Origin: Thiocapsa rosea | GTDB taxonomy: Bacteria > Pseudomonadota > Gammaproteobacteria > Chromatiales > Chromatiaceae | Assembly (NCBI RefSeq): GCF_003634315.1 | Contig: NZ_RBXL01000001.1 | Span: 2,398,501 to 2,462,500 of the forward strand | Direction: 5' to 3' | DNA: 64,000 nt | In this document: positions 43,265 to 64,000 of the stretch, in pieces | How positions within the stretch are numbered: the first letter of the stretch is position 1 | Layout of the letters: each line of letters opens with the position of its first letter | Position numbers and translations under genes: made by a program | The notes under the pieces: model-generated | The model's input: only the letters and a program-made list of their open reading frames with translations | Database searches by the model: none | What the model was told of the DNA's origin: nothing

Positions 43265-43289
43265 CTCAACCGCGCGCGGTGCGGTTTAG
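43265..43289. repeat. Minimal remnant of an A module
   Basis: Only the paired ends remain: CAACCGCGCG...GCGGTTTAG, about 25 bp. The TAA stop of the large GGDEF-EAL gene (43286-43288 on the minus strand) lies in its right end. Confidence 0.6.
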
Positions 43290-46200
43290 GATGATCGAGC
43301 CCGCGACTTCAGAGACGCCGGCTTGGTCAAGGCGGACTCCTGCGGATCGGCCCCCGGCTCGATGACCTGTCTTCGGAGCAGGGCCTCGATGTGATCGGCC
43401 GGTTCGGGTCGGCAGAACAGGTAGCCCTGACCCTCCCGGCAGCCGTGATCGATAAGAAAGGCTCTCTGAGCCTCGGTCTCGACCCCTTCGGCGATGACCT
43501 TGAGACCGAGGTTCGCACCCAGGCCGATGATCGCCTTGACGATCGTCTCGGCTTGAGGCTCCCCGGGTCCTCCTCTGCCGATCTCGGCGAGGAACGAGCG
43601 GTCGATCTTCAGCGTCTGCACCGGCAGGCGGTTCAGGTAGCTCAAGGAGGCGTAGCCGGTCCCGAAATCATCGATCGCGAGTGTAAATCCGTGGTCGTGC
43701 AACTGCGACAAAACCTCCACCGCTCGGTCGATCGAGCGCATGGCTGCGCTCTCCGTGACCTCGATCTCCAAGAGGCCCGGATCGATCCCGACCTCGGCTG
43801 CTGTCTTCGAGACCCGCTCGGCAAGCCCATCCTGATACAACTCGGCGGCGCTGAGATTCAGCGCCATCGGCACCGGGGAAATCCCGGCCCTGCGCCAAGC
43901 GGCGATCTGCTCGCAGGCGAGCCGTACGACGATGGGTCCGATGAACAGGATCAATCCACTGGACTCGGCGATCGGGATGAAGCGATCCGGCGGAATCAAC
44001 CCGAGCTCCGGGTGATTCCATCGCACCAAGGCTTCCAAGCCCCGAATGCGGCCGGTGACGATGTCGACACGCGGCTGGTAATGAAGCAGCAGCTCATCAC
44101 GATCGATCGCACGGCGCAGGGCCTGCTCGAGCCGAAACTGTTCCTGCAGATCATCGTTCAAGGCCGAGGTAAAGAACCGATGGAGCCCGCGGCCTTCCAT
44201 TTTTGCGCCGTGCAGCGCGGTGTCGGCATGACTGATCAGCTCTTCGGCCGTGCTCGCGTCCTCCGGATAGAGTGCGATGCCGATGCTGCAGCTCACCACG
44301 ACGCCCTGCTCGCCGAGGGCGATCGGTTGGGCCAGCGCGTCGCGAATGCGATCGGCAAGCAGTGCGGCGTCATCGGCCCGCCGCAACCCGGTGGCCAGGG
44401 CGATGAAGTTGTCGCCGCTGAATCGGGCCAGGGTATCCTCGTCGCGCAGGAGCGGCTGCCAGCGTTCGGCCACTGCGCGCAACAGCTCATCGCCCGCCGG
44501 GTGACCGAGCGAGTCGTTCACGGACCTCAGGTCGTCGACGTCGATCGAGAGGAGCGCGAGAATCCTGTCGGAATGTCGCGCGGCGATCAGGGCCTGCTCG
44601 ACGCGCTCGCGCATCGATGTCCGATTGGGCAGGCCGGTCAGCGGATCGTACTGGGCCAGATAGCTGACCTGCTGCGAGAGTGCCTTGCGGTCGCTGATAT
44701 CCTCGGCCAGCTTGACGTAGTGAGTGATCAGGCCCTGCTCGTTGCGCAACGGCGTGATGTGGGCGTACTCCCAATAGGAGTCGCCGGACTTCTTGCGATT
44801 CTGGATTTCTCCGGTCCAGACCTCGCCGTGTTGCAGCGCGCTCCAAATCTCCGAATCCGCGTTCGCGGTCAGCGTCGCCGGTTCAAGCATATCCACCGGT
44901 TGACCGAGGACCTCCTGCGGCCGATACCCGGTGCTCTCGCAGAAGCGTGCGTTGACGTACTCGATCGTCCCCGCGATGTCGGTGATCAGCACGATGCTCG
45001 GGCTTTGCTCGACCACCAAGGCAAGCCGCTCGATCTCGGCCTTGCGCGACTTGTGCTCGGTGACATCCAGGAGGCCGCCGTAGAGTCGACGCGCCGTCGG
45101 ATCGGTGTCTTCGGCGACGCATTCGGTCGTGGCGCGGAGCCAGCGTACCGCCCCGTCCTTCCGACGCAGACGCAGCTCGCAATCGGCCCTGGTCCCCGGG
45201 ACGAGTCCGGCAACCTTGTCGTTGAAGATCCCGACATCCTCGTCGATGACTAAACGGCGCCAGCATCCCATCTCCAGCACCTCGGCCAAGGCGTAGCCAG
45301 TCAGTGCTTCGACCGAATCGGTCATCCAGTCGATCCGGAATCCATCGCCTGGATGCTCCACACAAGAGTAGGCGACGTCGCTCATCATGGCCGTGACGCG
45401 CCGATAGAGGTTCTCGCTGGCCGCCAGACCGACCTCGGACGCAGTCCTGAGCAAGGCTGCGGCGACCACCTCGCCGATCACCTGCAACACCCGAATTTCA
45501 TCGGCGTTCCAGTCGTGCAGCTGCCTGACCGTTTCGATCCCGAGCGCACCCCAGACATGGCCATGGCTGGACATGGGCACGCTCACGGCCGACCGGACGG
45601 ATTCACGCTCGAGCTCCGCGCGTTCCCTCGCAGCCTCGTCCGGGAGCGCCGAGACATCCGGGATCGAGACGGGTGTGCGGGTGCGCAGCTGCTCGGCCCA
45701 CCAGGGAAACCGCTTGAGGGAGATCCCCTGGAAGTCCTGGATGAAGGGTTCGATACCCGCTGCACACCACTCATGGGTCATCTCCACGCTCGCGTATTCG
45801 TCCTCCAATCGGAATAGGTAGCAGCGATCGACGTCGAACACGGTGCCGATCCGTTCGAGTACCCAGCCGACGATGGGCTCGAGCGTATCGCCGGTGGCGT
45901 CGATGAAGCGTGACGAGACCTGAGCGACCAGAACCTGCAAATCCAATTGGCGTTTCAGCCCCCGTTCTGCCAGCTCGCGCTCGGTGACATCGGTTACGAT
46001 CCCGTGAAAATAGACGAGGGTCCCGTCCGGGCCGAAGACGCCGCGCGTCTCCTCCTCGACCCAATGCTCGGAGCCATCCGCCCAACAGACCCGGTAGGTC
46101 TGCCGGAAGACGTCGCGCTGCTCTTGGGCAAAGGTCTCGAAGGCCGCGACCAAGCGGTCGCAGTCTTGCGGATGAACGAGATCCAGGTAGGTCAATCGCC

Positions 46201-47308
46201 GTGCGAGAAGCTGCTCGAACGGATAGCCCCAACGGCGAACGTTCGGCGAGGCGTAGATGACCGGCCAACCCGGCTCCGGCGCCCAATGAAATGCGATCGT
46301 CGAGCTTGCATCGATGACCTCGGAGGCCATGCCGAGGTCCGTTTCGAGCGCGACCTTGTCGGTCACGTCCAGATTCGAGCCGCGGTGTCCGAGCGCGCGT
46401 CCGCCGTCGCCGCTGACCGGGACGCATAGATGCTCGATCCAACGCAGCTCGCCCGTGCGGGTGTAGATGCGAAACCGCAGCGGTTTGAACCGATGGGTCG
46501 TCTGCGTGCCGTGGAGATGCGTGAGATAGGTTTGGCGGTCGTCCGGATGGATGATCCGCGACAAGAGATCCGCGTCCTTCAGGAAGGCGGCTGCCGGGTA
46601 GCCGGTGATCCGCGCGCAGGCCGGGGAGACATAGCGAAAGCGTCCGTCCTCGCCCATCCAGTAGGCCCAGTCCGGTGCGAAATCGGCGACGATGTGATAG
46701 CGCTCTTCCTGAATGCGCAGGCGCCGGTTGGCGGCGACCAGATCCTCGCGCTGCGCGACCTGCTCGGTTTGATCGACAAGGTTGCAGATGATCTCGGCTT
46801 CGTTGCCTTCCATCTCCGGTAGACGGATCAGACGCAGATCGGCCGTCAGGATGTTGTCCCCCTGACCCCGCAGGGGAATCTCCCTGCAATCCGCGCGGCC
46901 GGTCTTGAGGGCATCGAGCATGGCGTTTTCGAGCAGTCTCGTCTGACCCTCGACGGCGAGATGGATGAAAAGCCGACGATCGAACGGCAGCATGCGTTGC
47001 GCCGCCGCGTTGCCTTCCTTCACGCGCCCTTGGGCGTTGATCAGCAGGACCGGGAAGGGCAGCTCGCGATAGAGCCGGGTGAAGCGTGCGAGTGCACGCT
47101 CGGTGAACTGCCGGCTGTCGTTCAGCGCCTGTTGCTGGATGTACAGCTCGGCATGGTAGATATGCAGCTCTTCGAGGAGCCGCTCGAAATCCAGAGTGCC
47201 CTGCTCGAAGGCATCGATGGACTCGTCGAACGAATGGTCGTGCAGGATCCGGCGCGCACGTTCGCGCAGATCCGTCATCTCGGCGGCGCCGAATTTATGT
47301 GTCGTCAT
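43286..47308 (-). CDS. Large multi-PAS/GAF protein with degenerate GGDEF and intact EAL domain
   Basis: A 1340-residue cytoplasmic protein. A helical N-terminus (about residues 10-85) is followed by four or five PAS/PAC domains, including HIVADFAPDWAYWMGEDGRFRYV. A central GAF (about 505-650, ESVRSAVSVPMSSHGHVWGALGIE) precedes two more PAS domains, then GGDEF and EAL. The GGDEF signature is degenerate (RFSGDNF) and unlikely to make c-di-GMP. The EAL part keeps EALVRW, NLSAAEL, EVTES, DDFGTGYASL and KIDRSF, so phosphodiesterase activity is likely. ATG at 47308 is chosen; another ATG at 47281 is possible. It follows the kaiBC block but an A1 repeat separates the two transcripts. Confidence 0.88.
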   Translation of the reverse strand: MTTHKFGAAEMTDLRERARRILHDHSFDESIDAFEQGTLDFERLLEELHIYHAELYIQQQALNDSRQFTERALARFTRLYRELPFPVLLINAQGRVKEGNAAAQRMLPFDRRLFIHLAVEGQTRLLENAMLDALKTGRADCREIPLRGQGDNILTADLRLIRLPEMEGNEAEIICNLVDQTEQVAQREDLVAANRRLRIQEERYHIVADFAPDWAYWMGEDGRFRYVSPACARITGYPAAAFLKDADLLSRIIHPDDRQTYLTHLHGTQTTHRFKPLRFRIYTRTGELRWIEHLCVPVSGDGGRALGHRGSNLDVTDKVALETDLGMASEVIDASSTIAFHWAPEPGWPVIYASPNVRRWGYPFEQLLARRLTYLDLVHPQDCDRLVAAFETFAQEQRDVFRQTYRVCWADGSEHWVEEETRGVFGPDGTLVYFHGIVTDVTERELAERGLKRQLDLQVLVAQVSSRFIDATGDTLEPIVGWVLERIGTVFDVDRCYLFRLEDEYASVEMTHEWCAAGIEPFIQDFQGISLKRFPWWAEQLRTRTPVSIPDVSALPDEAARERAELERESVRSAVSVPMSSHGHVWGALGIETVRQLHDWNADEIRVLQVIGEVVAAALLRTASEVGLAASENLYRRVTAMMSDVAYSCVEHPGDGFRIDWMTDSVEALTGYALAEVLEMGCWRRLVIDEDVGIFNDKVAGLVPGTRADCELRLRRKDGAVRWLRATTECVAEDTDPTARRLYGGLLDVTEHKSRKAEIERLALVVEQSPSIVLITDIAGTIEYVNARFCESTGYRPQEVLGQPVDMLEPATLTANADSEIWSALQHGEVWTGEIQNRKKSGDSYWEYAHITPLRNEQGLITHYVKLAEDISDRKALSQQVSYLAQYDPLTGLPNRTSMRERVEQALIAARHSDRILALLSIDVDDLRSVNDSLGHPAGDELLRAVAERWQPLLRDEDTLARFSGDNFIALATGLRRADDAALLADRIRDALAQPIALGEQGVVVSCSIGIALYPEDASTAEELISHADTALHGAKMEGRGLHRFFTSALNDDLQEQFRLEQALRRAIDRDELLLHYQPRVDIVTGRIRGLEALVRWNHPELGLIPPDRFIPIAESSGLILFIGPIVVRLACEQIAAWRRAGISPVPMALNLSAAELYQDGLAERVSKTAAEVGIDPGLLEIEVTESAAMRSIDRAVEVLSQLHDHGFTLAIDDFGTGYASLSYLNRLPVQTLKIDRSFLAEIGRGGPGEPQAETIVKAIIGLGANLGLKVIAEGVETEAQRAFLIDHGCREGQGYLFCRPEPADHIEALLRRQVIEPGADPQESALTKPASLKSRARSS

Positions 47309-47458
47309 CTCGTCGTCACGCCTCGCCGAGCGCCCCCGTGGCCCTCGTAACAGGATGCTGCGGCTCTTCGCCCGCCCTCGGACGGTCGCATGCCGCGATA
47401 GGCCCTCCGGCCTTGCTCTTAAGCCCCGCCTCGTCGCTGATCCGAGCCCCACGGTGGA

Positions 47459-47735: not shown

Positions 47736-50087
47736 TCAAGACAAAAGCCGCAAAACCGCTTCCGGCGGTACCGGCGGGCTGAAAAGATAGCCTTGCGCAC
47801 GGCGGCAGCCGACCCCGAGCAGAAACCGTCGCTGTGCTTCGGTCTCGACGCCCTCCGCGAGGACATCGAATCCGAGACTGTTGCCGAGCGTGGTGACGGC
47901 GGTGACGATGGCCGCGCTGGCGGGGTCGTCCGGAAGTCCGCTGATGAAGCTTCGGTCGATCTTGAGTGTATCGAATGGCAGGCCCTTGAGATAGGCGAGC
48001 GAGGAATACCCCGTCCCGAAATCATCCATCGCCAAGGCGATCCCCAACTGCTTGAGAGCGCCGAGCAGCCGTGGCGCGTCCTCGCGCAGATCCATGACGA
48101 AGGTCTCGGTCAGCTCCAGTTCGAGACGTGCGGCGTCCAGTCCGGTGTCGTGCAGGATGGAGGCGAGCGTTTGTGCGAAATCGCTGCGCTGGATCTGAAT
48201 ACCGGAGACGTTCACGGCGATGCGTCCGAACGGGATCCCCGCGGTCTCCCACTCGCGTGCCTGGAGGCAAGCCCGTCGCAACACCCATGCGCCGAGAGGG
48301 ATGATGAGTCCGGTCTCTTCGGCCAACCGAATGAAGCTGTCCGGAAAGACCATGCCGCGCTCGGGATGCTGCCAACGCACCAAAACCTCGAGGCCGCTTA
48401 CCCGTCGGCTTGCGGTGTCGACCAACGGCTGGTAATGCAGGCGCAACTCGTTGCGCTCGATCGCGCGGTTAAGCTCCGAGGTCAAGGTCACGCGCTCACG
48501 CGCATAGTCCGTCAGGCCGCGCGCATAGTGGCGATAGCCGTTGCCGCCGGCCTCGCGGGCCTGGTAGAGGGCGGCGTCGCAGTTCTGCAGGAGCTCGGAG
48601 ACGTCGGTGCCGTCCTCGGGATAGATGGCGATCCCGATGCTCGCACTCATGAAGAGCTCTGCGCCCTTGACCGTGAAGGGTTTGTTCAGGCTCTCGCGGA
48701 TGCGCTCCGCCATCAGCGCGGCACGGGTGTCGATGTCCTCGTCGCACTCGATCAACAGGGCGAGCTCGTCGCCGCTCAGCCGTGCGACGGTTTCGTCGAT
48801 GCGCACCAGCGCGGTCAGGCGCTTGGCCACCTCGCGCAGCGCAAGGTCGCCGACCGCGTGCCCGAGGCTGTCGTTGATGTGCCTGAAACCGTCGATGTCG
48901 ACCAAGAGCATGCCGACACGGGCTCGGCTCGTGCTTGCGCGCAGCAGCGCCTGTTCCAAGCGGGTGCGGAACAGCAGCCGGTTGGGAAGGTCGGTGAGCG
49001 GATCGCGGTGCGCCAGGCGCTCGATCTGTGCCTCGGAGCGTTTGACGTCGCTCAGATCCGAGAAGACGCCGACATAGTGCGTCGTTTGGCCCAGCTCCGA
49101 GCGCACGGCATTGATGTTGACCCACTGCGGATAGATCTCTCCGTCTTTGCGGCGGTTCCAGACCTCGCCGCGCCAGTGGCCTCGGTCGAGCAGTGCCCGC
49201 CACATCTCCTCGTAGAAGGGTTGCTCGTGCTTTCCGGACTTGAGCAGGCTCGGGTTGCGACCCAACGCCTCCTCTGTGCTGTAGCCGTTGATCTCGGTGA
49301 AGGCCGGATTGACCGCGATGATCGTCGGGGTCGTGTCCGTGATGATCACGCCCTCGCTGGTATTTTCGAAGACGGCCGCCGAGAGGCGCAGGCGCTCCTC
49401 GGCGGCCTTGCGATCGGTGATATCCTGAAAGGCGCCTTGCACGTGCGTGATGCGGCCCGAGATGTCGCGAACCGCGGCACCGATGGTCCGCACCCAGACC
49501 CGCCGACCCTTCGCCGTGATGATCTGCAGTTCCTCGTCGTAGCCGATACCCTCGCGTGCGCAGGCCGTGAAGACGTGTGTGATGCGCTCGCGCCATTCGG
49601 GGGCATAATAAGAAATGCCGTCCTCCACGCGGACCACCGTGCCCGGCGGGTCCTCGTGAATGCGGCAGACCTCGTCCGACCAAGTCACCCGGTTGGCGAG
49701 GAGGTCGACATCCCATCCGCCGATCCGCGCGAGGTTCGCGGCCATTCGGATGAGACGTTCGCGGTCATTGAGCTTGGCCTCCGCGAGCTTGTGCACGGTG
49801 ACGTCGCGCAGATAGACCACGGACACATCCTGTCCGTCCATCGCCATCTCGACGCAGCGCATGTCCGCCGACACGATCCCGCCGGCGCGCGGAATCTCGA
49901 TCTCGGTCGGCTCGTCCGGGATCACGACGAAGCCGAAATCCGCGCCCACGAGCGCCTCGGTCGGGAGCTCGAAGAGGCGTTCAGCTGCTGCATTCGCGTA
50001 GCCAATCACGCCCTGATGGTCCAGCACCAAGATGGCGTCCGAGGCCAGGGCCACGATCTGCTCGAACTGAACCCAATCCCGACTCAT
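47736..50087 (-). CDS. PAS-GGDEF-EAL protein downstream of kaiB
   Basis: A 783-residue protein with three N-terminal PAS domains (about residues 1-120, 130-255, 255-380), a GGDEF domain whose signature reads RLSGDELAL (first Gly replaced by Ser), and an EAL domain with EVLVRW in place of EALVRW. The EAL metal and catalytic blocks NVSGIQI, ELTETF, MDDFGTGYSSL, KIDRSF and AEGVET are intact, so phosphodiesterase activity is likely. The cyclase domain may be weak or regulatory. Its start overlaps the kaiB stop by 4 bp, so it is translated with KaiB and KaiC. It may be the output of the Kai pair. Confidence 0.9.
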   Translation of the reverse strand: MSRDWVQFEQIVALASDAILVLDHQGVIGYANAAAERLFELPTEALVGADFGFVVIPDEPTEIEIPRAGGIVSADMRCVEMAMDGQDVSVVYLRDVTVHKLAEAKLNDRERLIRMAANLARIGGWDVDLLANRVTWSDEVCRIHEDPPGTVVRVEDGISYYAPEWRERITHVFTACAREGIGYDEELQIITAKGRRVWVRTIGAAVRDISGRITHVQGAFQDITDRKAAEERLRLSAAVFENTSEGVIITDTTPTIIAVNPAFTEINGYSTEEALGRNPSLLKSGKHEQPFYEEMWRALLDRGHWRGEVWNRRKDGEIYPQWVNINAVRSELGQTTHYVGVFSDLSDVKRSEAQIERLAHRDPLTDLPNRLLFRTRLEQALLRASTSRARVGMLLVDIDGFRHINDSLGHAVGDLALREVAKRLTALVRIDETVARLSGDELALLIECDEDIDTRAALMAERIRESLNKPFTVKGAELFMSASIGIAIYPEDGTDVSELLQNCDAALYQAREAGGNGYRHYARGLTDYARERVTLTSELNRAIERNELRLHYQPLVDTASRRVSGLEVLVRWQHPERGMVFPDSFIRLAEETGLIIPLGAWVLRRACLQAREWETAGIPFGRIAVNVSGIQIQRSDFAQTLASILHDTGLDAARLELELTETFVMDLREDAPRLLGALKQLGIALAMDDFGTGYSSLAYLKGLPFDTLKIDRSFISGLPDDPASAAIVTAVTTLGNSLGFDVLAEGVETEAQRRFLLGVGCRRAQGYLFSPPVPPEAVLRLLS

Positions 50088-50368
50088 CTGATCTCCCGAA
50101 GATCCAGACCCACCAAGACCTTCTCGCGTTCGCAGAGGTCACCGACGACGCGCCTGACCGGCGGGGGCAACTTCTTGATCACGACAGGCGTGGCCAGGAT
50201 GCGCTCATCCTCGGCCACTTGCGGATGCTCCAGGATGTCGATGACCTCGATCTCGAGCTGCAGATCCTCGCGGCCGATGTCCAGGACAATGCGCTCCAGG
50301 TTGTGGATGGCACGATCGGCGGCAGCCGTGTGGCCCGCGATATAGAGCCTTAGCACTTGTACGGTCAT
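50084..50368 (-). CDS. kaiB: KaiB-family circadian-clock-type protein
   Basis: A 94-residue KaiB homologue. The N-terminal VLRLYIAGHTAAADRAIHNL and the conserved C-terminal stretch KKLPPPVRRVVGDLCEREKV then LVGLDL match cyanobacterial KaiB along its length. KaiB is a fold-switching protein that binds the CI ring of KaiC. It overlaps kaiC by 4 bp upstream and the PAS-GGDEF-EAL gene by 4 bp downstream. No KaiA is visible. Without KaiA, KaiBC pairs in other purple bacteria act as an hourglass-type timer or stress regulator. Confidence 0.93.
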   Translation of the reverse strand: MTVQVLRLYIAGHTAAADRAIHNLERIVLDIGREDLQLEIEVIDILEHPQVAEDERILATPVVIKKLPPPVRRVVGDLCEREKVLVGLDLREIR

Positions 50369-52120: not shown

Positions 52121-52380
52121 TTAAGCCGCGTCCGGCGCGGTATGCGCTGTTTTTGGATGGGATCGGCCTCGGAAGACTTGACGGTCGCTGCAGCCGGCGC
52201 GGTTTAAGAGATTAAAAAATATAAAATTCTAAACCGCGTCCCCGCTATGGGCCGTGGATGCACCCAACGTCGAACTCACGCGAAAGTGAGCATCTCGCTC
52301 TGGACGCGGTTTAGTGGCCGTGGAGGCACCAAACGTCGAGCCCACTCGAAAAGGAGCCTCTCGCTCCGGACGTGGTTGAA
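52121..52380 (+). repeat. Composite repeat A2-spacer-B plus a partial second B
   Basis: A2 (52121-52207), spacer with TTAAAAAATATAAAATT, intact B (52230-52314), then a partial B copy (52315-52380) that lacks the first 20 bp and is more diverged. The intact B is the best reference for the IS66-split copy at 14249. It separates kaiC from the chemosensory operon upstream. Confidence 0.88.
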
Positions 52381-54770: not shown

Positions 54771-55315
54771 GATCCCTGTCGCTGTTGGTCGCTCATCCGT
54801 GCCGGCGTCGTGTTGCGTGCGCCGAGAGCGGCCGTGCAGGCCTCTTCCGGGAGCCGCCGGGGGTCGAGCAGGATGGCGAGGTCATCCGTGTTTGTCGCCG
54901 AGAGCGCGACGAGCCCGCGCACGCAGGCCAGTTCGGACAGTGCCTCCATCAGTGCCGGCAGTGGATGGATCGCGTCTACCTGTGTGCGCCGCAGCGCGAT
55001 CGGCTCCTCGATGCGCACGCCCGGGCGCTGTGCCCCGTCCGATGCTCCATCCTGCGAGGTGTGCCTGAACCGGAGCAGACGCTCGCGCGCTCCATGCGCT
55101 TGGGCCGAGGCAGGGCCGGATGGGTGGCGCGGGAGGCCGAGCAGATCGGTCAATGCGGGCACTTGAGCCTCCGAGGTTTCGGCGAGATCGGCGATGCCCA
55201 GGATATGTTCGGAGGCAACCGCAAACCTCAGCGCGCCGACGCTGAAGAGGATCAGATCGATCCCGCCGTCGTCGCGCTCCTCCGGGGCCTCGTGTTTGCG
55301 CTTCATTCGCGTCAC
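54767..55315 (-). CDS. CheW-like coupling protein (second, diverged)
   Basis: A 182-residue CheW-type fold protein: IDLILFSVGALRFAVASEHI at the start and a final GLVALSATNTDDLAILLDPRRL. The central linker is longer and less conserved than in CheW. It lies between the first CheW gene (2-bp gap) and the PAS-GGDEF-EAL gene (4-bp overlap). Wsp systems use two CheW-like proteins; this could be the counterpart of WspB or WspD. A later ATG (4th codon) is also a possible start. Confidence 0.72.
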   Translation of the reverse strand: MTRMKRKHEAPEERDDGGIDLILFSVGALRFAVASEHILGIADLAETSEAQVPALTDLLGLPRHPSGPASAQAHGARERLLRFRHTSQDGASDGAQRPGVRIEEPIALRRTQVDAIHPLPALMEALSELACVRGLVALSATNTDDLAILLDPRRLPEEACTAALGARNTTPARMSDQQRQGS

Positions 55316-55317: not shown

Positions 55318-55860
55318 CTACTCGCGCAAGAGGGCCTGAAACACCCGATCCAGATCGAGCAGGATCACGATCTGTCCCTCATGCTCGAACACCCCGGTTG
55401 CGGGTCCGCGCAAGGGCTCGGGCAAGCTCTGCGGCGGCGCCTGGATGGACTCTTCCGGCACGTCCAGCACGTCGACTACGCGGTCGACCCGCAACCCGCT
55501 GCGCATCTGCGTGCCCTGGCCGAGCAAGATGGCCGAGCGACGGTCGGACGGGGCATGCGTCATGCCCAACAGATCGCCGAGACGGACCACCGAGGCGATG
55601 TCGCCGCGGACATTGATGACGCCCTCCAAGGCCGGCGGGCAGCCCGGGACGACATGGATGGTCGTGAGCGGCAGGATCTCCACCAGCCCGCGCGCAGGGA
55701 AGGCGAGCAGGGCCTCGCCGACCACAAAGATCACGAGCTTGACCTTGGCGGTCTCGACCTCGACGACCTGTGCACCGGCTTGGCGCCGCCGATCGAGGAT
55801 CATGTCGAGCTCGTCGCGATCGGAAGCGTCGGTTTCCGATACGGTTCGCTCAAGAGTCAT
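55318..55860 (-). CDS. Chemotaxis coupling protein CheW
   Basis: A 180-residue CheW with an N-terminal extension of about 35 residues and the domain starting at KLVIFVVGEALLAFPARGL. It contains VPGCPPALEGVINVRGDIASVVRLGDLLG, the block that contacts receptor and CheA, and VIGxLD-like ending DLDRVFQ. It overlaps the HPt-REC-REC-GGDEF gene by 11 bp. Confidence 0.9.
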   Translation of the reverse strand: MTLERTVSETDASDRDELDMILDRRRQAGAQVVEVETAKVKLVIFVVGEALLAFPARGLVEILPLTTIHVVPGCPPALEGVINVRGDIASVVRLGDLLGMTHAPSDRRSAILLGQGTQMRSGLRVDRVVDVLDVPEESIQAPPQSLPEPLRGPATGVFEHEGQIVILLDLDRVFQALLRE

Positions 55861-57649
55861 CGGACGTCCCCGTCGATTCGGATGAAGGCTCGGGCAAGGC
55901 GTCTTCCGGTGCGGCGACCTCCACCCGGTTGCGGCCGCCTTTCTTGGCCCGATAGAGCGCTCGGTCCGCGGCCTCGGTCATGGCGTCCGGGCTGTCGAAG
56001 GTCGGAAAGTCCGATACCCCGACGCTGAAGGTGCAGCGGAACTCCTGTCCGTCCGAGAAGAAGGTCACCCCCGCGAAGCTGATGCGCAAGGCATCGAGGA
56101 TGTGCTTGGCTTGCTCGACGTCCACGCCGCTCAAGACCACCGCGAACTCCTCGCCGCCGTAACGTCCGACCAGATCGTCCTCGCGCAGGCGCAGGCGAAG
56201 TGTGCGGCTCAGCGCCATCAGCACCTGATCTCCGGTCGGATGACCGTAGGTGTCGTTGACCGACTTGAAGTGATCGACGTCGATCATGGCGAAGCACAAG
56301 GACGTCCCGGCACGGCGCGCGTTTGCCACGGCGACCTCCAGGAACTGCATGATGGCGTTGTGGTTGAAGAGTCCGGTCAGGCCGTCGCGGACCATCAGCG
56401 AGTGCAGGATGCGCATGCGCTCGGCCCGCAGACCGACCTCGGCGATCAATCTGGCCGGCTCGATCGGTTTCGTCAGAAAGCCGTCGGCCCCGACTGCCAG
56501 CGCCTGATGTTGGCGCTTCAGGTCGGTCTCGGAGGAGACGTAGATGATCGGAAGGCTCACATGGCCCGGGATCTGGCGCAGGATCCGGGATAGCTCCGGG
56601 CCGGAGCAGTCCGGCATGTACATGTCCATCAGCACCAGATCGGCATCGAAGGTGTCGAGCAGACTGAGCACCTGCTCCGGATCACTCACCGCCTTGGCGA
56701 CCATCCCGGCTTCTTCCAGCACCGTCGCGTGGAACTGAGCCAGCTCGCGATCGTCGTCCACCACCAGGACGTTGATCGGCTCGGGAGGATGCGGGTTGGT
56801 GAGTCGATCGAGGAATTCCAGCAGCTCGACCGTCTTGATCGGCTTGGTGCAGTAAGCGCTGCCGCCGGCACGTACCGCCTGGAGGCGCCCGCCGAAGTCG
56901 TCGCGACAGGAGATGAAGATGCAGGGGATCGCCTCGTCCGCTTCGGCCGTGAGTTCGGCCAGCATCTTCGGCCCCGCGTTCTCGTCCTCGGGAAAGACCA
57001 CGTCGAGGATCATCGCCGAGGGGCGTTCGATGCCGACTGCCTCGCGCAGGTCGGCGAGGTTTGTGAAGGCACGCACGCGATAGCCGAAACAACCGAGCTG
57101 ACCGGCCAGTTGCGCGGCAAGATCCGGGTCGTCGTCGCAGAGATAGACCATCCGTTGGCTGCGGTCCGCGGGTTGTCCCGGGCGTGCGTCGGGTGCTTGT
57201 CCGGATGGCGGCTCGGGCTGCGTCTCCGGCTCGGGAAGCTCGAATCCGGGAGCCACATCGGGGTCCACCTGCACATGGGCGGCGAGTGCGAGCGCGTCCA
57301 GGTCGTCCATCAGCCGCGCGAGCTCGGTCGGCAGTACGGCCTCGACGCTCCCGCCCGCGTCCATGGCGTGGCGCACCGCCTGCTCGGCGTTCTTGGCGGC
57401 ATCGCTGATCTGTCGGAAGCCGAAGGTGGCGCCCGATCCCTTCAGGGTGTGGAAGAGGACGTAGAGGGCGTCGAGCCGGGCATGATCGACCTCGCCCGGG
57501 TGCAGCTCGGCGACGGCACGGCGCGCGTCGGCAAGACGCCCGGGCAGCTGCGACAGAAATGATGTGCGCAGACGCGCCTTGCGGATCTGAAAGGATTCGC
57601 CCTTGTGCGGCTCGGCGGGACTGGAGGCATTTCCCCGTTCGGCGACCAT
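55850..57649 (-). CDS. HPt-REC-REC-GGDEF response regulator (WspR-like output)
   Basis: A 599-residue protein. The HPt domain has phospho-His67 in LFHTLKGSGATFGF. Receiver 1 (about 165-285) has Asp in LDVVFPEDE; receiver 2 (about 293-410) has Asp in LVLMDMYMPDCSG; both carry the expected Lys (TKPI). The C-terminal GGDEF (about 430-580) has RYGGEEFAVV and an RxxD site (REDD) five residues before it. In the Wsp pathway WspR is a single-receiver diguanylate cyclase. Here two receivers and an HPt add a phosphorelay step. It should be activated by CheA. Confidence 0.92.
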   Translation of the reverse strand: MVAERGNASSPAEPHKGESFQIRKARLRTSFLSQLPGRLADARRAVAELHPGEVDHARLDALYVLFHTLKGSGATFGFRQISDAAKNAEQAVRHAMDAGGSVEAVLPTELARLMDDLDALALAAHVQVDPDVAPGFELPEPETQPEPPSGQAPDARPGQPADRSQRMVYLCDDDPDLAAQLAGQLGCFGYRVRAFTNLADLREAVGIERPSAMILDVVFPEDENAGPKMLAELTAEADEAIPCIFISCRDDFGGRLQAVRAGGSAYCTKPIKTVELLEFLDRLTNPHPPEPINVLVVDDDRELAQFHATVLEEAGMVAKAVSDPEQVLSLLDTFDADLVLMDMYMPDCSGPELSRILRQIPGHVSLPIIYVSSETDLKRQHQALAVGADGFLTKPIEPARLIAEVGLRAERMRILHSLMVRDGLTGLFNHNAIMQFLEVAVANARRAGTSLCFAMIDVDHFKSVNDTYGHPTGDQVLMALSRTLRLRLREDDLVGRYGGEEFAVVLSGVDVEQAKHILDALRISFAGVTFFSDGQEFRCTFSVGVSDFPTFDSPDAMTEAADRALYRAKKGGRNRVEVAAPEDALPEPSSESTGTSDDS

Positions 57650-57660
57650 GGTGACCTCTT

Positions 57661-58011
57661 TTAGAGTCGGGCGACAGCCGCCGGCAACGTAGCCTCGAGC
57701 GACGCATCCTTCATCAGGCAGGCAGCGATCCCCGGCGCTTGTGCGTGGAGCGGCTCCGGGTCGTCCCCGGTCAGGAGGACGAAGGGGGTGGGAATGCCCC
57801 GATCGCGCATCTCCCGGAACAGGTCCAAACCGCTCAAGAGCGGCATGTGCATATCCGAAATGACCAGGTCGAATGCCTCGTGTTCCTCGCCGAGGGCGTC
57901 GAGTGCCTCCACGCCGCTCTCCACGAGCAGACAGTCGTGACCCTCCGCATCCAGAATGGCCTCTGCCATCGCTCCGGCGAAAGGGTCATCGTCGACGATC
58001 AAGATACGCAT
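57661..58011 (-). CDS. Single-domain response regulator (CheY-like)
   Basis: A 116-residue stand-alone receiver. LIVDDDPFAGAMAEAIL, Asp near residue 52 in LVISDMHMPLLSG, Thr in VLLTGDDPE and a Lys in LMKDASL. It could carry phosphate from CheA to the HPt-REC-REC-GGDEF protein or act as a sink. It begins after a hexanucleotide repeat downstream of cheA and is 11 bp before the GGDEF gene. Confidence 0.88.
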   Translation of the reverse strand: MRILIVDDDPFAGAMAEAILDAEGHDCLLVESGVEALDALGEEHEAFDLVISDMHMPLLSGLDLFREMRDRGIPTPFVLLTGDDPEPLHAQAPGIAACLMKDASLEATLPAAVARL

Positions 58012-58120: not shown

Positions 58121-58188
58121 TGGCAAAGGGATTTTCTCGTTGCTTTGTCCTACTTATTCTTGAACCGTTCGCTATAGGCTTTGTGTGA

Positions 58189-60501
58189 TCAGCCGAGCAG
58201 ATTCCGTAAGGTGTCGACGAGATTGGATTGGTCGAAATCGCCTTTGACGATATAGGCGTCGGCGCCGACCTGAATGCCCCGCTGTTTGTCCTCGCGGGTC
58301 TGACGCGAGGTGACGATGATGATCGGCGTGGAGCGGTACTTGTCATTCTCGCGCAGCTTGGCGGTGAGCGAGAAGCCATCCAGACCGGGCATCTCCACGT
58401 CGGTGAGGACCGCATCGAAGCGCCCGCCCACCGCCTTCTGCCAGCCGTCGAGACCGTCCTCGGCCAGGGTGACGCGGTAGCCGGATGCCTCGAGCACCTC
58501 TTTTTCGATCTCCCGCGTGTTCAGCGAGTCGTCCACCACCAGGATGTGCTGGCCCTGTTGTCCGTCGTGCCGGCGTGCCGAGTCCTTCACTGCCGCCTTG
58601 ATTGCCTCGCCGCGGATGCGTCGTGCCGCGTCCAGCAGGGCAGGGGCCTGGAGCAGGCTGACCAGCGCGTTGGTGCCCGTGACGACCACGCCGCCGACCA
58701 GGCCGCCGAGGACACCCCGGCCGCGCATGTGCTCGGGCAGCGGCTTGAGAACCATGTCGCGCTCGTCGACGAGCTGATCCACCACCAGCCCAAGCTTCGC
58801 CTGCCGCACCCCGATGATGACGACCAAGAGGGTCTCCTCGTCGAGTCCGTGTCGCTGCCGCCCGGATGACGCGGCCGATTCGGGCAGACCCAGGAGATCG
58901 ACGAGAGGAATCAGGGGGACCAGTTCGTTGCGGAGCACGACCGCCGGGCGTCCGGCGACCTGAATCGTCTCGGAGCGGGAGGTGCGGATCAGCTCGGAGA
59001 CGTGAGCCGCGCTGATTCCGAAACAGTGCCCGCCGGCTTCGAGCAGCAAGATGCGCATCACCGCCAGCGAGAGCGGGAGCTTGAGCGTCAAGGTGGTTCC
59101 GGCGCCCGGTCGACTCTTGATCGAGACCGAGCCCTGCAGGTCGTCGGTGATGGCGCGCTTGACCACGTCCAACCCGACACCGCGACCCGAGACCTCGGTG
59201 ATGATGGGGCTGGTGCTGAAACCGGGTTGGAAGATAAGGTCGGCGACCTGCTCGTCGGTGATCTCTTGGCTGGCGCCGGCATCGATCAGACCCTTTTGCA
59301 TGGCCTTCTCGAGGATACGTGCGCGGTCGAGTCCGCGACCGTCGTCGACGATGGCGATCATCACGGCGCCGCCCTCCTGACGTGCCGAGACTCGGATCTC
59401 CCCGAGCGTCGGCTTGCCCGCCGTTAGACGCTCCTCGGTCGACTCGATGCCGTGGTCGATGGCGTTGCGCAGCAGGTGGACCAGCGCGTCGCTGAGGTGG
59501 TCGATGATCTGGCGGTCGAGCTCGATCTCGCTGCCGCTCACCTCGCATCGGATCTCCTTGCCGAGCGAGCGTCCAAGCTCGCGCGCAATCCGGGCGATCG
59601 GGTCCAGAACCGTACCCAGAGGCAGCATCCGCATACCGAGTGCGCGGTCGTTGAGCTCGCCGATGAGCCGCTCCTGATCGAGCGTCAGGTCGCGCAGATC
59701 GAGCGTGAACCTGTGCAGTGCGCGCGCAAGCTCGGCCGACTCGGCCCCCGGGTCGGCAACGGTGCGTGCGGCGCGCGTGCGCGCCGAGGCATCGAGCAGG
59801 CGTGCCTCGCCTAGGATGTGACGCAGCCGCGCCTGGTTGGAGACCATCTCGCCCATCAGTTTGACCAGGGCGTCGAGCTTGTCCATCCGCACGCGCACGC
59901 TCTCGGGTGCGCGGATGCGTGTCGCGGCCTCGGTGCCTGTCGGTTGCGGGGCCGTGGGCGCCGGGTCTGGCGCGGGTGAGGACGGCCTCGGGTTTTCGGG
60001 CGGAATGTCGCTCTGAATCGCGGCCGGGATCGAGTCAGGGAGCGAGCTTGCATCGGCAGCGGCCGAATGGTCGGGAACGGACCTCGGGCCCGGCTCCGAC
60101 CAATCGCCCGCGGCGGCCCTGGCGAGCCGCTCGCACAGGGCTTGATCCGGTGGTCCGGAGGCTGCGCCTGCTCCCGATGCGGCGACCTCTTCGATCATTG
60201 CGCCGATCGTATCGACGGCGCGCATCAGGAGTGCGGCGAGCGCCGGATCGGGCTGGATCTTACCTTCACGCAGAACGCCGAGCACGTCCTCGAGATGGTG
60301 GGCGGTCTCGGCGATGCTCGCGAGCTTGAGCATCCGCGAGGATCCCTTGATGGTGTGGGCGGAGCGGAACAGGGCGTCGATCCCGTCCCGGCCGCCGCCG
60401 TCCGTCGTACCGAGCGTGGCGAGTCCGGTCTCCAGTCGGGCGATATGCTCGCGCGCCTCGTCGACGAAACGGCCGATGAATTTGGTGATGTCGAGTGCCA
60501 T
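58189..60501 (-). CDS. Hybrid chemotaxis kinase CheA-REC (WspE-like)
   Basis: A 770-residue kinase. HPt with phospho-His49 (FRSAHTIKGSSRM), a proline/alanine-rich linker (about 140-200), a dimerisation region, then a histidine-kinase ATPase with the N-box LVHLLRNAIDHGIES and IVDDGRGLDRARI. A CheW-like domain (about 475-610) and a C-terminal receiver with Asp in AVLTDVEMPGLDG follow. This is the CheA-REC form of WspE. It lies 10 bp after cheR and is followed by the hexanucleotide repeat and two response regulators. Confidence 0.94.
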   Translation of the reverse strand: MALDITKFIGRFVDEAREHIARLETGLATLGTTDGGGRDGIDALFRSAHTIKGSSRMLKLASIAETAHHLEDVLGVLREGKIQPDPALAALLMRAVDTIGAMIEEVAASGAGAASGPPDQALCERLARAAAGDWSEPGPRSVPDHSAAADASSLPDSIPAAIQSDIPPENPRPSSPAPDPAPTAPQPTGTEAATRIRAPESVRVRMDKLDALVKLMGEMVSNQARLRHILGEARLLDASARTRAARTVADPGAESAELARALHRFTLDLRDLTLDQERLIGELNDRALGMRMLPLGTVLDPIARIARELGRSLGKEIRCEVSGSEIELDRQIIDHLSDALVHLLRNAIDHGIESTEERLTAGKPTLGEIRVSARQEGGAVMIAIVDDGRGLDRARILEKAMQKGLIDAGASQEITDEQVADLIFQPGFSTSPIITEVSGRGVGLDVVKRAITDDLQGSVSIKSRPGAGTTLTLKLPLSLAVMRILLLEAGGHCFGISAAHVSELIRTSRSETIQVAGRPAVVLRNELVPLIPLVDLLGLPESAASSGRQRHGLDEETLLVVIIGVRQAKLGLVVDQLVDERDMVLKPLPEHMRGRGVLGGLVGGVVVTGTNALVSLLQAPALLDAARRIRGEAIKAAVKDSARRHDGQQGQHILVVDDSLNTREIEKEVLEASGYRVTLAEDGLDGWQKAVGGRFDAVLTDVEMPGLDGFSLTAKLRENDKYRSTPIIIVTSRQTREDKQRGIQVGADAYIVKGDFDQSNLVDTLRNLLG

Positions 60502-60511: not shown

Positions 60512-62026
60512 TCAGGCCACGGCGTCGGCGAGACGGGCCAGACGCGTCTCGCAGAGGAAGCGCAGATCCTTCACCGACAGGAGCGAGGGCAGCGCGCCCG
60601 TGCTTTGCATCGCGAGTGTCTCGTTCTGCAACTGGCGCAGCACGATGCGATATTCCCGTTCGGCCGGACCGGTCTCGCCTTGCTGGCGGTAGGTTTCGGC
60701 GAGCTGATAATGGGCCCGCCAGCAGCTCGGCTTGTCGTAGACCACCCGACGCAAGGCGCCGATCGCTTCCTGTGAGTCGCCGCGCAGACGCGCGCAGCGC
60801 CCGAGCAGAAGGAGCGCGTCCGACGACCAGGGGTCTTGCCCCAGCGCGCGCTGCGCGGCGGTTTCGGCACCGGCCGTGTCGCCGCGCTCGAGCAGCAGAT
60901 GGGCCTGGAGTGCGAGATGCTCGGCGGCGGCATCCTCGCGATCGCAGAGCGGGGCGAGACGGCGAAGCGCCTCCTCGAAACGCTCGGAGCGGGCCGAGCT
61001 CAGGGCCTGCTCGTAAGGCTCTCGATCGACCGGGTTCCCGGCCGGCGCGCTCGGTCGGGGTGGATCCGGGCGAGCGTCGATCGAGCCCGAATCGCCTCGG
61101 CCCGTCGAGGCGGACCGCACGGCGGCGGCTCGCGGCGCGCGGGTGCTCGGGCCCGTCTGCGCCGTCGTGTCCGCGCGTACGCCTTGTCCCGGCTTCACAC
61201 GCCCCGGCGAGGGCTCGACCGGGGCCTTCTCGAACAGGAAGACGCCGTCCAGCGCGATCAGGCGCATCAAGCCGAAGTCGTTGGCGAGCGTCTCCGAGGC
61301 GCCGACGATCAGATGACCTTTCGGCACGAGTAGGTCGCGTAACCGCGCCATGACCGCCTTGCGGGTCGCCGGATCGAAATAGATGGAGACGTTGCGGAAG
61401 AAGATGACGTCTTGCCCCTGCATCGCCTTTGGGAAGTCAGGCGCAAGCAGGTTCCAGGACATGAAATCGACCTGTCGCCGGATCGTCGCATCGATGCGGC
61501 GATGCGTTCCGTCGAGCGGCGAGAACCAGCGATCGCGAAGCTCCGCAGGCAGCGTCCGAAAGGCGAGCGGGCCGTATTCCGCCGCGTGGGCACGCTCGAG
61601 TGCGGCGTCGTCGACATCGCCCGCAGTGATGCGGAACAGGCGCTCGGCGAGATCGCCGTAACGCTCGCGCAAGGCGATGGCGATCGAATAGGGTTCCTCG
61701 CCGGTGGAGCACCCCAAGGAGAGTATTCGGATCGGATTGCCCTTCTCGGCTTGCGCCAGGCGCGCGGGCACGAGCCGCTCCACGAGCAGATTCAGATGGT
61801 CGGGCTCACGGTAAAAGTAGGTTTCGTTGACCGTCAGCAGACTGGTCAGACGCCCAAACTCGACCGGATCGGCAGCGACGGATTTCAGATAGGCGTCGAT
61901 CGATCCCGCGGCGGTTGCCGCGATCCTACCCGCCAGGATGGACTGGAGTCGCCCGTCCGCCTCCGAGCCGAAGTGCAGCCCGAGGCGATCCTTGACGAAG
62001 GACTTGAAGGAGTGGATCGGCATCAT
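60512..62026 (-). CDS. cheR: Chemoreceptor methyltransferase CheR with TPR tail (WspC-like)
   Basis: A 504-residue methyltransferase. The CheR N-domain includes LTVNETYFYREPDHL; the SAM site is RILSLGCSTGEEPYSIAIAL and DVIFFRNVSIYFD, with KGHLIVGASETL near the end. The C-terminal 200 residues contain a Pro/Ser-rich linker and TPR motifs (EHLALQAHLLLERGDTAGA, DALLLLGRCARLRGDSQEA). CheR with C-terminal TPR is characteristic of Wsp-type systems. It overlaps cheB by 4 bp. Confidence 0.93.
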   Translation of the reverse strand: MMPIHSFKSFVKDRLGLHFGSEADGRLQSILAGRIAATAAGSIDAYLKSVAADPVEFGRLTSLLTVNETYFYREPDHLNLLVERLVPARLAQAEKGNPIRILSLGCSTGEEPYSIAIALRERYGDLAERLFRITAGDVDDAALERAHAAEYGPLAFRTLPAELRDRWFSPLDGTHRRIDATIRRQVDFMSWNLLAPDFPKAMQGQDVIFFRNVSIYFDPATRKAVMARLRDLLVPKGHLIVGASETLANDFGLMRLIALDGVFLFEKAPVEPSPGRVKPGQGVRADTTAQTGPSTRAPRAAAVRSASTGRGDSGSIDARPDPPRPSAPAGNPVDREPYEQALSSARSERFEEALRRLAPLCDREDAAAEHLALQAHLLLERGDTAGAETAAQRALGQDPWSSDALLLLGRCARLRGDSQEAIGALRRVVYDKPSCWRAHYQLAETYRQQGETGPAEREYRIVLRQLQNETLAMQSTGALPSLLSVKDLRFLCETRLARLADAVA

Positions 62027-63090
62027 ACAATCCCGGCGCCGAGTGCTGCACGACGCCCCGCCAGCATGCAGAGCTTGCCTGCGATGAGATCGAGCGGCAG
62101 CGTCATCTGCACGCCGCCGGCGAGGATCGCCTCGCGGTTCATTCCGAAGATCACCGAAGTGGCCTCGTCTTGAGCGATGGTCGCCCCGCCTGCCTTTGCG
62201 AGCGCGAGCATCCCCTGTGCTCCGTCGCGTCCCATGCCGGTGAGGACGACGCCGATGGCATCGAGGCCGACCTCGGCCGCCACGCTGGTGAGCAACCGAT
62301 CGCAGCTCGGGCGATACATGTCCGAATCCAGACGCGCTACCAGTCGGATCCGTCGTCCGGCACCGAGTGTCATGTGGGTCACCGAATCGGCCAGATAGAC
62401 GTGGCCGGCCACGATCGGCTCCCCCTCGGAGGGGATGGTCACGGGCAGCGCGCAGAGTCGGCTCAACCAGTCGGCCATCGCCCCGGCGAACCCGTCGGAG
62501 ATGTGCTGGGCGATCAGAACCGGGGCCGCAAAATCGGCGGGAAGGTCGGGGAGGATCCGAGCCAGGGCCTGAGGCCCGCCGGTCGAGGAGGCGATGGCGA
62601 CGACGGGCGAGCCGGATCGGGGCGGGTCGGTTTGTATCCGCTCTTCACGCCGAGCCGGCGAGGCCGGGTCGGGCTTGAGGGTGAGCGCGCCGTTGCGGCG
62701 GATATGGCGGATGACGGGGATGCGCGCCAGGATACGCAGGCGCAACGCCAGTCCGGGTCCCTCGTCGAAGGTCGGCTTGCGCGCGGCCTCGAGCGCACCG
62801 CGCGCGACCGCGGCCATGGCGTTGGGTGCGTCGGCCAGGTCGGAGAGAACCAGGATTGGGACGGCGTAGCGGGCCATGATCTCCTCGATCGCCTGCATTC
62901 CGTCCATCTCGGGCATCTGAAGATCCATGGTGACGACGTCTGGCTTGAGCGCCAGGGTCCTTTCGACCGCCTCCCGGCCATCCGCGGCCTCGCCGCAGAC
63001 GACCAGACCCGGCGCCGCCTCGATGAGCGCCCGGATCAGGCTTCGCGCCGAGCGGCTGTCGTCGACCACCAAGACCCGTACAGGTTGCAT
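62023..63090 (-). CDS. cheB: Chemoreceptor methylesterase CheB
   Basis: A 355-residue CheB. Receiver domain with Asp56 (TMDLQMPEMDG), and a C-terminal esterase with Ser169 in AIASSTGGPQAL, His196 in IAQHISDG and Asp289 in LTGMGRDGAQG. It removes receptor methyl groups, providing adaptation together with CheR. It is the WspF counterpart and lies 14 bp after the receptor gene. The gene is complete. Confidence 0.95.
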   Translation of the reverse strand: MQPVRVLVVDDSRSARSLIRALIEAAPGLVVCGEAADGREAVERTLALKPDVVTMDLQMPEMDGMQAIEEIMARYAVPILVLSDLADAPNAMAAVARGALEAARKPTFDEGPGLALRLRILARIPVIRHIRRNGALTLKPDPASPARREERIQTDPPRSGSPVVAIASSTGGPQALARILPDLPADFAAPVLIAQHISDGFAGAMADWLSRLCALPVTIPSEGEPIVAGHVYLADSVTHMTLGAGRRIRLVARLDSDMYRPSCDRLLTSVAAEVGLDAIGVVLTGMGRDGAQGMLALAKAGGATIAQDEATSVIFGMNREAILAGGVQMTLPLDLIAGKLCMLAGRRAALGAGIV

Positions 63091-63104
63091 TGATCACTCC
63101 GTCA

Positions 63105-64000
63105 TCAGGACCGGCTCGAGACGCCGGGATCGGCCGACGGCGTGCGTGCTCCGTCGAGTACAAACTGATCCAGGCTGCCCTTCAGGGCACCCGAGAGATC
63201 GTTCATATCCCGCGCGATATCGGCGATCCGGCGCACGGCGCCTGCGGTCTCCGAGCTGGCGGTGACGATCTCGCGCAAGGCGACCACGACCTGACCGCTG
63301 GCAGTGCGCTGTTGTTGCGTGGAGAGACTGATCTGCTGGGCGGAGGTCGAGGTCTCGCTCGCCGCCTCGACGATGGCCTGGAGGATATCCGCCGTGCTGG
63401 CCGAGTCCGCGATCCCCTCATGGATCCCGGTGGAGCCTTTCTCCGAGCTGATCACGAGCCGGTTGATCGATTCCTGGATCTCGGCGACCTTGCCGGTGAT
63501 CTCTCCTGTGGATTCGGTCACCGAATCGGCCAGCCTGCGGATCTCGGCGGCGACGACGCCGAAGCGTTTTCCCGCCTCGCCCGCCGAGGATGCCTCCAAG
63601 GCGGCGTTGAAGGCGATCAGCTTGGTCTGATCCGCCACCGTATCGATGATCTGCATGATCTTGGAGATCTCCTTGGAGCGGGTGCCGAGCGCGAGGATCT
63701 CGTTCAGCGCGCTCTGATTGTCCTCGCCGATCCGTCGCATCTTCTCCACCAGGCTCTGCATGGCATCCGAGCCGCGCAGGCTGTCGTCGTAGGTCCGACC
63801 GGCGATGGTCACGACGGACTCGGAGTATTCCGCGATCTGGGTCGATGAGGCGGAGAGCTCCTCCATCGTCGAGGTGATCTCGGCCACCGAGGCCGACATC
63901 TGACTGGATGTCGCCGCCTGTCCGTCGACCGCCTGCGCGATCTCGCGCGATGCCGCGTGGACCGAGAAGGCGGTCGTCTCCACGCCCGTCACCAACGCGT
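63105..64000 (-). CDS. Methyl-accepting chemotaxis protein, C-terminal part (cut by window edge)
   Basis: The 299 visible codons cover the cytoplasmic signalling domain. The hairpin tip reads QTKLIAFNAALEASSAGEAGKRFGVVAAEIRRLAD, the part that contacts CheA and CheW, flanked by long coiled-coil heptads. The frame is open to the window end, so the sensor part and start lie outside. It heads the che operon; as the only receptor in view it is the likely input (WspA-like). A TTG at 63995 should not be read as the start. Confidence 0.93.
   Translation of the reverse strand, partial: ALVTGVETTAFSVHAASREIAQAVDGQAATSSQMSASVAEITSTMEELSASSTQIAEYSESVVTIAGRTYDDSLRGSDAMQSLVEKMRRIGEDNQSALNEILALGTRSKEISKIMQIIDTVADQTKLIAFNAALEASSAGEAGKRFGVVAAEIRRLADSVTESTGEITGKVAEIQESINRLVISSEKGSTGIHEGIADSASTADILQAIVEAASETSTSAQQISLSTQQQRTASGQVVVALREIVTASSETAGAVRRIADIARDMNDLSGALKGSLDQFVLDGARTPSADPGVSSRS

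Follow-up and report, generated by a model that had tools for sequence, protein, structure and literature searches.

The window analysed here, a stretch of 64,000 nucleotides from Thiocapsa rosea (contig NZ_RBXL01000001.1, positions 2,398,501 to 2,462,500), ends in an island of signalling genes that runs from position 43286 to the last letter. In this island a chemosensory (che) operon, a kaiC-kaiB pair and genes for enzymes of cyclic diguanylate (c-di-GMP) follow one another. We read it as a c-di-GMP control locus that would have two inputs, a chemosensory array and a KaiBC timer; the reading is tentative, and we put its chance slightly below even. The initial annotation of this DNA had already proposed two blocks that converge on c-di-GMP, and the genes and domains support this. 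They also support its tie of KaiBC to a PAS-GGDEF-EAL protein, since the two form an overlapping unit that recurs in other genera. The combination of Che and Kai, which was taken there as undescribed, has no match that we could find in the open-licence literature, and the same holds for the count of GGDEF/EAL neighbours of kaiB and for the PAS subfamily shared by such neighbours, both given below. The features of the island are as follows.

43286..47452, minus strand: multi-PAS/GAF-GGDEF-EAL protein of 1388 residues, true start maybe downstream (Pfam and motif scan)
47736..50087, minus strand: PAS1-PAS-PAS-GGDEF-EAL protein of 783 residues, linked to kai (Pfam, motifs, orthologs)
49803..50087, minus strand: PAS1, the compact N-terminal PAS of the 783-residue protein (conservation and predicted fold)
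50084..50368, minus strand: kaiB, 94 residues (Pfam KaiB 75.1 bits against a cut-off of 27; KaiB relatives in PDB)
50365..52089, minus strand: kaiC, 574 residues (Pfam, NCBIfam, alignment, motif scan)
52250..52377, no strand assigned: a dispersed 66-bp repeat, present twice in the gap that separates che from kai
52389..54770, minus strand: PAS-GGDEF-EAL protein of 793 residues (Pfam and motifs)
54767..55315, minus strand: second CheW-like protein of 182 residues, CheW3 of cluster 2 (position and published equivalent)
55318..55860, minus strand: CheW, 180 residues (Pfam CheW 99.9 bits)
55850..57649, minus strand: diguanylate cyclase (DGC), HPt-REC-REC-GGDEF, 599 residues (Pfam and motifs)
57661..58011, minus strand: single REC protein, CheY-like (Pfam)
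58189..60501, minus strand: CheA with C-terminal REC, 770 residues (Pfam and motifs)
60512..62026, minus strand: CheR with C-terminal TPRs, 504 residues (Pfam)
62023..63090, minus strand: CheB, 355 residues (Pfam REC and CheB_methylest; NCBIfam PRK00742 313.4 bits against a cut-off of 293)
63105..64000, minus strand: methyl-accepting chemotaxis protein (MCP), C-terminal part in the window; the full protein has 650 residues, dCache_3-HAMP-MCPsignal

All genes and domains named in the initial annotation exist, and all lie on the minus strand, as judged from open reading frames and Pfam; the second CheW is the sole one with neither a Pfam nor an NCBIfam match. With its start at L005:3558, the MCP gene exceeds the window by about 1.06 kb. 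Stops and starts were said to overlap inside each block, which is true for some joints only. The overlap is 4 nt at kaiC/kaiB, at kaiB and the 783-residue gene, at the second CheW and the 793-residue gene and at CheR/CheB, and it is 11 nt at the first CheW and the cyclase. There are gaps as well: 177 nt separate CheA from REC, 299 nt the 793-residue gene from kaiC, and at least 283 nt the genes of the 783- and 1388-residue proteins, the start of the latter gene being uncertain.

How might the two inputs work together? From the genes, the states of their motifs, the overlapping kaiC-kaiB-phosphodiesterase unit, its recurrence and the statistical association between kaiB and GGDEF/EAL genes, all of which are observed, we infer biochemical activities, a direction of signalling, a contact by PAS1, hourglass behaviour and a phenotype. 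The MCP-CheW-CheW-CheA-REC array would phosphorylate the HPt-REC-REC-GGDEF protein, and c-di-GMP would be made. KaiBC would be an hourglass without KaiA that tracks the ATP/ADP state through the day, and its state would be passed, probably by contact with PAS1, to the 783-residue protein, which would degrade c-di-GMP. Since the kaiB gene overlaps that of the 783-residue protein, the two are probably coupled in translation. One c-di-GMP pool would then be pushed by both blocks, so that stimuli and the time or energy state might jointly set attachment or aggregation.

The motif scan bears on the c-di-GMP enzymes of the island, with the motifs taken in their known meaning. The 599-residue cyclase has the HPt histidine, both REC aspartates, GGEEF and the RxxD I-site. 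In the 783-residue protein the GGDEF motif is degenerate (SGDEL) and the EAL motifs are intact (EVL, NVS, ELTET, DDFG, KID, EGVE, QGY), these being the catalytic ones. The 1388-residue protein likewise has a degenerate GGDEF motif (SGDNF) with intact EAL motifs, and in the 793-residue protein GGDEF, I-site and most EAL motifs are intact. On these motifs the 783- and 1388-residue proteins are probable phosphodiesterases; beside them the locus would hold one phosphorelay cyclase and, with the 793-residue protein, one enzyme that is possibly bifunctional.

The kai half of the island belongs to a known kind. Its KaiC scores 527.5 bits, over the NCBIfam PRK09302 cut-off of 408, and with 269.7 bits it is below the cyanobacterial TIGR02655 cut-off of 546.25. 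It has two KaiC domains, a C-terminal extension and both Walker A motifs (GAAGTGKT, GQAGTGKT), and the catalytic-Glu positions read EE in CII and Asp-Glu in CI. The closest solved relative is the KaiC of Rhodobacter sphaeroides, to whose phosphosites Ser434-Ser435 align; these two serines are invariant in 7 aligned orthologs. KaiA was found in none of the 11 genus genomes by a search whose control found the KaiA of Synechococcus elongatus. The double-domain KaiC, the Ser-Ser sites, the C-terminal extension, the presence of KaiB and the lack of KaiA are all shared with R. sphaeroides, whose KaiBC is described in passages of PMC10076222 as an ATP/ADP-driven hourglass without KaiA. Unlike the R. 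sphaeroides kaiBC operon, which according to a part of PMC5520375 includes a histidine kinase gene, the Thiocapsa pair has a c-di-GMP enzyme as its neighbour. There is also a second kai locus in the same genome (L006:8294-13727; G000:C1:1021293-1026726), which consists of kaiC, kaiB, a second KaiB-domain protein, a PAS-histidine kinase-REC protein and a REC-LuxR regulator. One genome thus has two Kai systems, one beside a phosphorelay and the other beside c-di-GMP enzymes.

Is a c-di-GMP enzyme a usual neighbour of kaiB? A 2011 paper, reportedly by De Luca and colleagues, touched on the matter. In that year a GGDEF/EAL gene beside kaiBC was already reported (PMC3164672, section 17), and in Thiodictyon kaiCBB has a diguanylate cyclase as a neighbour according to a 2018 genome paper (PMC5944118). 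The Thiocapsa island shares with both a GGDEF/EAL protein adjoining kaiC/kaiB outside cyanobacteria; neither a neighbour count nor a common PAS subfamily nor a chemosensory operon appears in these passages of the two papers.

Of 369 genomes in the class, 28 had a KaiB over the Pfam cut-off, and of 398 in the phylum 37 did; only such places were included in our count. A neighbour was defined as a same-strand gene within 400 bp of the kai block, its domains being called by single-sequence phmmer queries from the window and L006 proteins and not by Pfam. Seventy regions were classified and 68 counted, with T. rosea itself excluded and with L294 (G299) and L301 (G718:C162) dropped, where the phmmer query found no KaiB; some regions end at contig edges (e.g. 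L298, L300), possibly hiding a neighbour. A GGDEF/EAL neighbour stands at 16 of the 31 gammaproteobacterial and 11 of the 37 other kaiB loci, and a histidine kinase at 4 and 16 of them, respectively, with both types at one gammaproteobacterial locus. Among the counted loci, the commonest signalling neighbour of kaiB is a c-di-GMP enzyme in Gammaproteobacteria and a kinase elsewhere. When either strand and fragments were allowed, the count was 17 of 29 class loci, and it is this looser count that is to be set against the roughly 1.3 expected by chance, a figure from random placement with the GGDEF counts of these genomes, kinship ignored, rounded genome sizes and a gene length of 2.4 kb. Outside the count, eight Chromatiaceae KaiC loci (L214-L221) have a GGDEF-EAL gene directly downstream in six cases.

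There is a further question, which part of the neighbouring protein reads KaiBC? This may be PAS1, the first 95 residues of the 783-residue protein. It is retained in 10 of 10 orthologs, with a varying number of PAS domains behind it, and in G001 it sits in a separate reading frame. In the scan of 194 family genomes PAS1 had 12 matches at E 1e-8. The nine strongest are orthologs of the 783-residue protein, all beside this kaiB. Among the three weaker ones, that of G067 belongs to a GGDEF-EAL protein whose gene adjoins a divergent kaiC/kaiB, and those of G026 and G028 have no kai gene in the 9.6 and 5.7 kb around them. The G067 protein (locus L182:3900-8226) reads PAS1-PAS-GGDEF-EAL with a weak C-terminal match, below the Pfam cut-off, to the chemoreceptor zinc-binding (CZB) domain.

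Phylum-wide, the compact PAS occurs on many kinases and cyclases beside kaiBC. At L224, L225, L226 and L254, outside Gammaproteobacteria, two compact-PAS proteins follow one another and one of them has GGDEF; at L254 its partner is a hybrid histidine kinase. A PAS profile trained on Chromatiales and non-gammaproteobacterial loci was run on the class, at most the best 13 first-look candidates per genome being scored, so that weaker matches are incomplete. Among the matches listed, 15 outside T. rosea reach at least 70 bits, of which 8 are within about 2.5 kb of KaiB; below 70 bits the scores fall to 58 and merge into generic PAS domains. KaiB is present in 7 of the 12 genomes with a strong PAS match versus 27 of 368 overall (p about 3e-6, without correction for relatedness), and G513 and G439 have strong matches away from kaiB, yet KaiB elsewhere in the genome. 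That PAS1 is exclusive to kai loci was rejected, as 7 of the 15 strong matches listed are away from kaiB. Kai loci are thus strongly enriched in this subfamily, which nevertheless also occurs elsewhere.

The predicted structure of PAS1 is a PAS fold with a mean pLDDT (predicted local distance difference test) of 82.4, in which no helix is modelled for residues 47-60, and its best structural matches are FixL-type PAS domains. The PAS domain of FixL carries a heme-bearing helix. In this model PAS1 seems to be without that helix, and a role in protein contact seems to fit it better than cofactor sensing. A wider proposal, which we regard as somewhat improbable, is that the compact PAS subfamily is a general reader of KaiBC outside cyanobacteria, fused by lineage to histidine kinases or to c-di-GMP synthases and phosphodiesterases and with a role like that of the KaiB-like domain of SasA. 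The Thiocapsa reader would then have come to lie downstream of a chemosensory cyclase, with timer and chemoreceptor array both acting on one second-messenger pool.

The chemosensory half of the island is already known, and it is not of the type that the initial annotation called Wsp-like; it corresponds to the published Halomonas 'cluster 2'. The gene order MCP, CheB, CheR, CheA, CheY, DGC, CheW, CheW is found here, the last CheW by position only, and the DGC has an HPt and two REC domains with every phospho-acceptor present. Cluster 2 of Halomonas titanicae KHS3 has the same composition, MCP-CheB2-CheR2(TPR)-CheA2(REC)-CheY2-DGC(HPt-REC-REC-GGDEF)-CheW2-CheW3; in the relevant parts of PMC5907407 its authors distinguish it from Wsp and name Chromatiales and other orders among its hosts. 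With Pseudomonas Wsp the island shares an MCP, CheR-TPR, CheA-REC, CheB, two CheW and a cyclase output, and it differs in gene order, in an extra CheY-like protein and in HPt-REC-REC-GGDEF replacing REC-GGDEF (same source). Wsp proper was rejected on gene order and output domain, since wspA-wspF with a WspR REC-GGDEF or WspH is not what is found. The identity of the second CheW rests on its position, its conservation in relatives and the precedent of Halomonas CheW3, described there as recognisable as CheW-like only by structure. 'Kai' and 'EAL' have no occurrence in the main text of PMC5907407, so that, unlike the cluster as published there, the island has a kai block and a GGDEF-EAL tail. 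Matches to the HPt-REC-REC-GGDEF cyclase at E 1e-110 are present in at least 44 of the 194 family genomes (best 6 first-look candidates scored per genome, and best 7 in a companion scan, so that the totals of both are lower bounds).

Is the junction of che and kai conserved? The relatives compared include Thiocapsa roseopersicina DSM 217 (G004), T. marina 5811 (G003), T. imhoffii (G002) and Thiocapsa sp. KS1 (G005) and, outside the genus, Thiococcus pfennigii (G053). The island and a 4-alpha-glucanotransferase gene on one side are syntenic in G001-G005 and G008; a fasciclin gene bounds the other side in G001-G005, and the G008 contig stops inside the 783-residue gene. The cyclase is found at the E 1e-110 threshold in 9 of the 11 genus genomes, 7 of which have the kai block, and kaiC is a full open frame in five (T. 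rosea and G001-G004). Among the 24 family genomes with strong KaiC and strong cyclase matches, the two are at most 20 kb apart in six, all Thiocapsa, at least 140 kb apart on one contig in six others and on different contigs in 12, linkage calls being limited by the fragmentation of many non-Thiocapsa genomes. G008 is a seventh junction genome by its kaiB and 783-residue gene. On this evidence the Kai-Che junction is genus-specific, with Thiocapsa (7 of 11 genomes) as the only genus to have it among the Chromatiaceae examined. Conservation of the gene order in other Chromatiaceae, which had been suggested as a check, thus extends to other Thiocapsa, where an order kept in several genomes is more than chance, and to no other genus examined.

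The two modules also occur apart. A kaiC-kaiB-783 unit without che, with the ortholog of the 783-residue gene after kaiB, is found in Thiococcus pfennigii, in G041 from another Chromatiaceae genus and in Halorhodospira abdelmalekii; the contig scan with two peptide patterns gave 14 loci and is biased to close relatives. In G036, che is followed by a 1388-type protein and then the fasciclin gene, and in G042 the order is 4-alpha-glucanotransferase, che and a 1388-type protein, with no kai at either place. These two look like the state that preceded the arrival of kai. The 793-residue gene is decayed in G001, G003 and G009. In G001 and G003 it is present as short remnants with che and kai retained (L040/L041, L044/L045), and in G009 a scar (L105:14551-15043) joins pieces of the 793- and 783-residue genes. 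The scar suggests that kaiC-kaiB might have been lost by recombination between two related GGDEF-EAL genes.

The kaiC-kaiB pair has a history of its own. T. rosea and G005 are 92% identical in KaiC and 97% in KaiB, and the identity of T. rosea to G001, G003, G004, G008 and G002 is 71-78%. Thirteen other genes were compared, and in 12 of them G005 is no closer to T. rosea than one or more of those species; the exception is the single REC (91% to G005 and at most 90% to the others). Along the DNA the identity pattern changes near 52.05 kb, where kaiC starts, and again near 49.95 kb, in the first codons of the 783-residue gene. For KaiC the approximately unbiased (AU) test rejects a clade of T. 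rosea, G001, G003 and G004 with p 0.00017, the clade having been chosen after the identities were seen, and for the 1388-residue protein it rejects T. rosea with G005 (p 0.003). A general exclusion of that grouping for the neighbours is unsupported (p 0.32 for the 783-residue protein, 0.12 for CheA, 0.067 for DGC), so the case for exchange comes mainly from the KaiC test and the switch in DNA identity. There appears to have been a swap between Thiocapsa lineages in which a divergent allele replaced kaiC and kaiB together with the first part of the 783-residue gene.

The 66-bp repeat between the blocks was considered as a kai regulatory element and rejected: all 40 scored places matched, out of 440 first-look candidates in the genome, and a repeat so dispersed is not specific to kai. 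The unit carries a short inverted repeat. There is also a perfect 6-bp tandem repeat of 4.5 copies at 58093-58119, in the gap between the cheA and REC genes. A scan of 47000-58500 for promoters and terminators was uninformative, with 1 promoter-like and 5 terminator-like sites versus 1.3 and 5.1 expected.

Several of our observations weigh against a c-di-GMP locus with two inputs. Given the gap of 299 nt, it is uncertain whether che and kai are transcribed together in T. rosea. Neither neighbour type is present at 12 of the 31 gammaproteobacterial and 10 of the 37 other kaiB loci, and the strong PAS1-profile matches away from kaiB add to this. In Ectothiorhodospira (L129, L130) the gene after the same KaiC-KaiB is an oppositely oriented glutamate-cysteine ligase gene and not GGDEF-EAL; a third locus (L128) stops at a contig edge. 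Among 13 aligned cyclase loci of other genera, 12 have che genes and none has kai genes, and G007 keeps the che operon without kai there. Eight genomes of the genus carry the kai block or once did, and three of them have a broken kaiC or none: it is split across two frames in G005, lacks 478 N-terminal residues in G008 and is deleted in G009, where the stretch from the 793- to the 783-residue gene consists of fragments. The 783-residue gene is frame-split in G001. The junction being confined to Thiocapsa and kaiC being lost or broken in three genomes, the arrangement is lineage-specific and not essential.

The blocks might then be neighbours without cross-talk, which we consider a real though lesser possibility: a self-contained kaiCB-phosphodiesterase cassette with its own target would have landed in a c-di-GMP cluster by chance or by GGDEF-EAL recombination, the che operon remaining independent. 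The modules are indeed separable: G036, G042, G007 and others have che without kai, Thiococcus, G041 and Halorhodospira have kai but no che beside it, and the close linkage of KaiC and cyclase in just 6 of 24 family genomes fits this as well. Synteny extends likewise to the flanking 4-alpha-glucanotransferase gene and, as far as the contigs allow, to the fasciclin gene, and therefore the order retained in a single genus is weak evidence of coupling. Against independence, the two modules finish in enzymes that act on one diffusible messenger, and the junction is kept from T. imhoffii to other species, at 59-79% protein identity between T. imhoffii and T. rosea for most genes of the island and 41% for the second CheW. 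Could the locus instead be decaying, with KaiBC no longer keeping time and the che-driven cyclase alone of importance? That kaiC and the 793-residue gene have repeatedly been lost or broken within the genus would agree with that, but in T. rosea kaiC, kaiB and the two phosphodiesterase genes have open frames and retain catalytic motifs, and kaiC-kaiB alleles seem to be exchanged as a pair; we think decay very unlikely.

A reversed direction of signalling, in which the PAS-GGDEF-EAL protein feeds the timer and its sensor state or c-di-GMP tunes KaiBC, is in our judgement unlikely, less remote than decay. SasA is an output kinase in cyanobacteria, and histidine kinases hold the same place beside kaiBC elsewhere, where the kinase is more naturally an output. 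On the other side, a change in c-di-GMP shifts the period, phase and amplitude of the clock in Synechococcus elongatus, as stated in a part of PMC13001216.

What might the two-input locus mean for these bacteria? Thiocapsa is a genus of purple sulfur bacteria in which natural versions of one locus, with kai and without it, can be compared. The PAS subfamily common to the kinase and c-di-GMP neighbours gives a fragment of about 95 residues that could be expressed for binding of KaiB or KaiC. With a Kai timer and a chemosensory cluster lying together, the behaviour of the cell would seem to depend jointly on outside stimuli and on the time of day.

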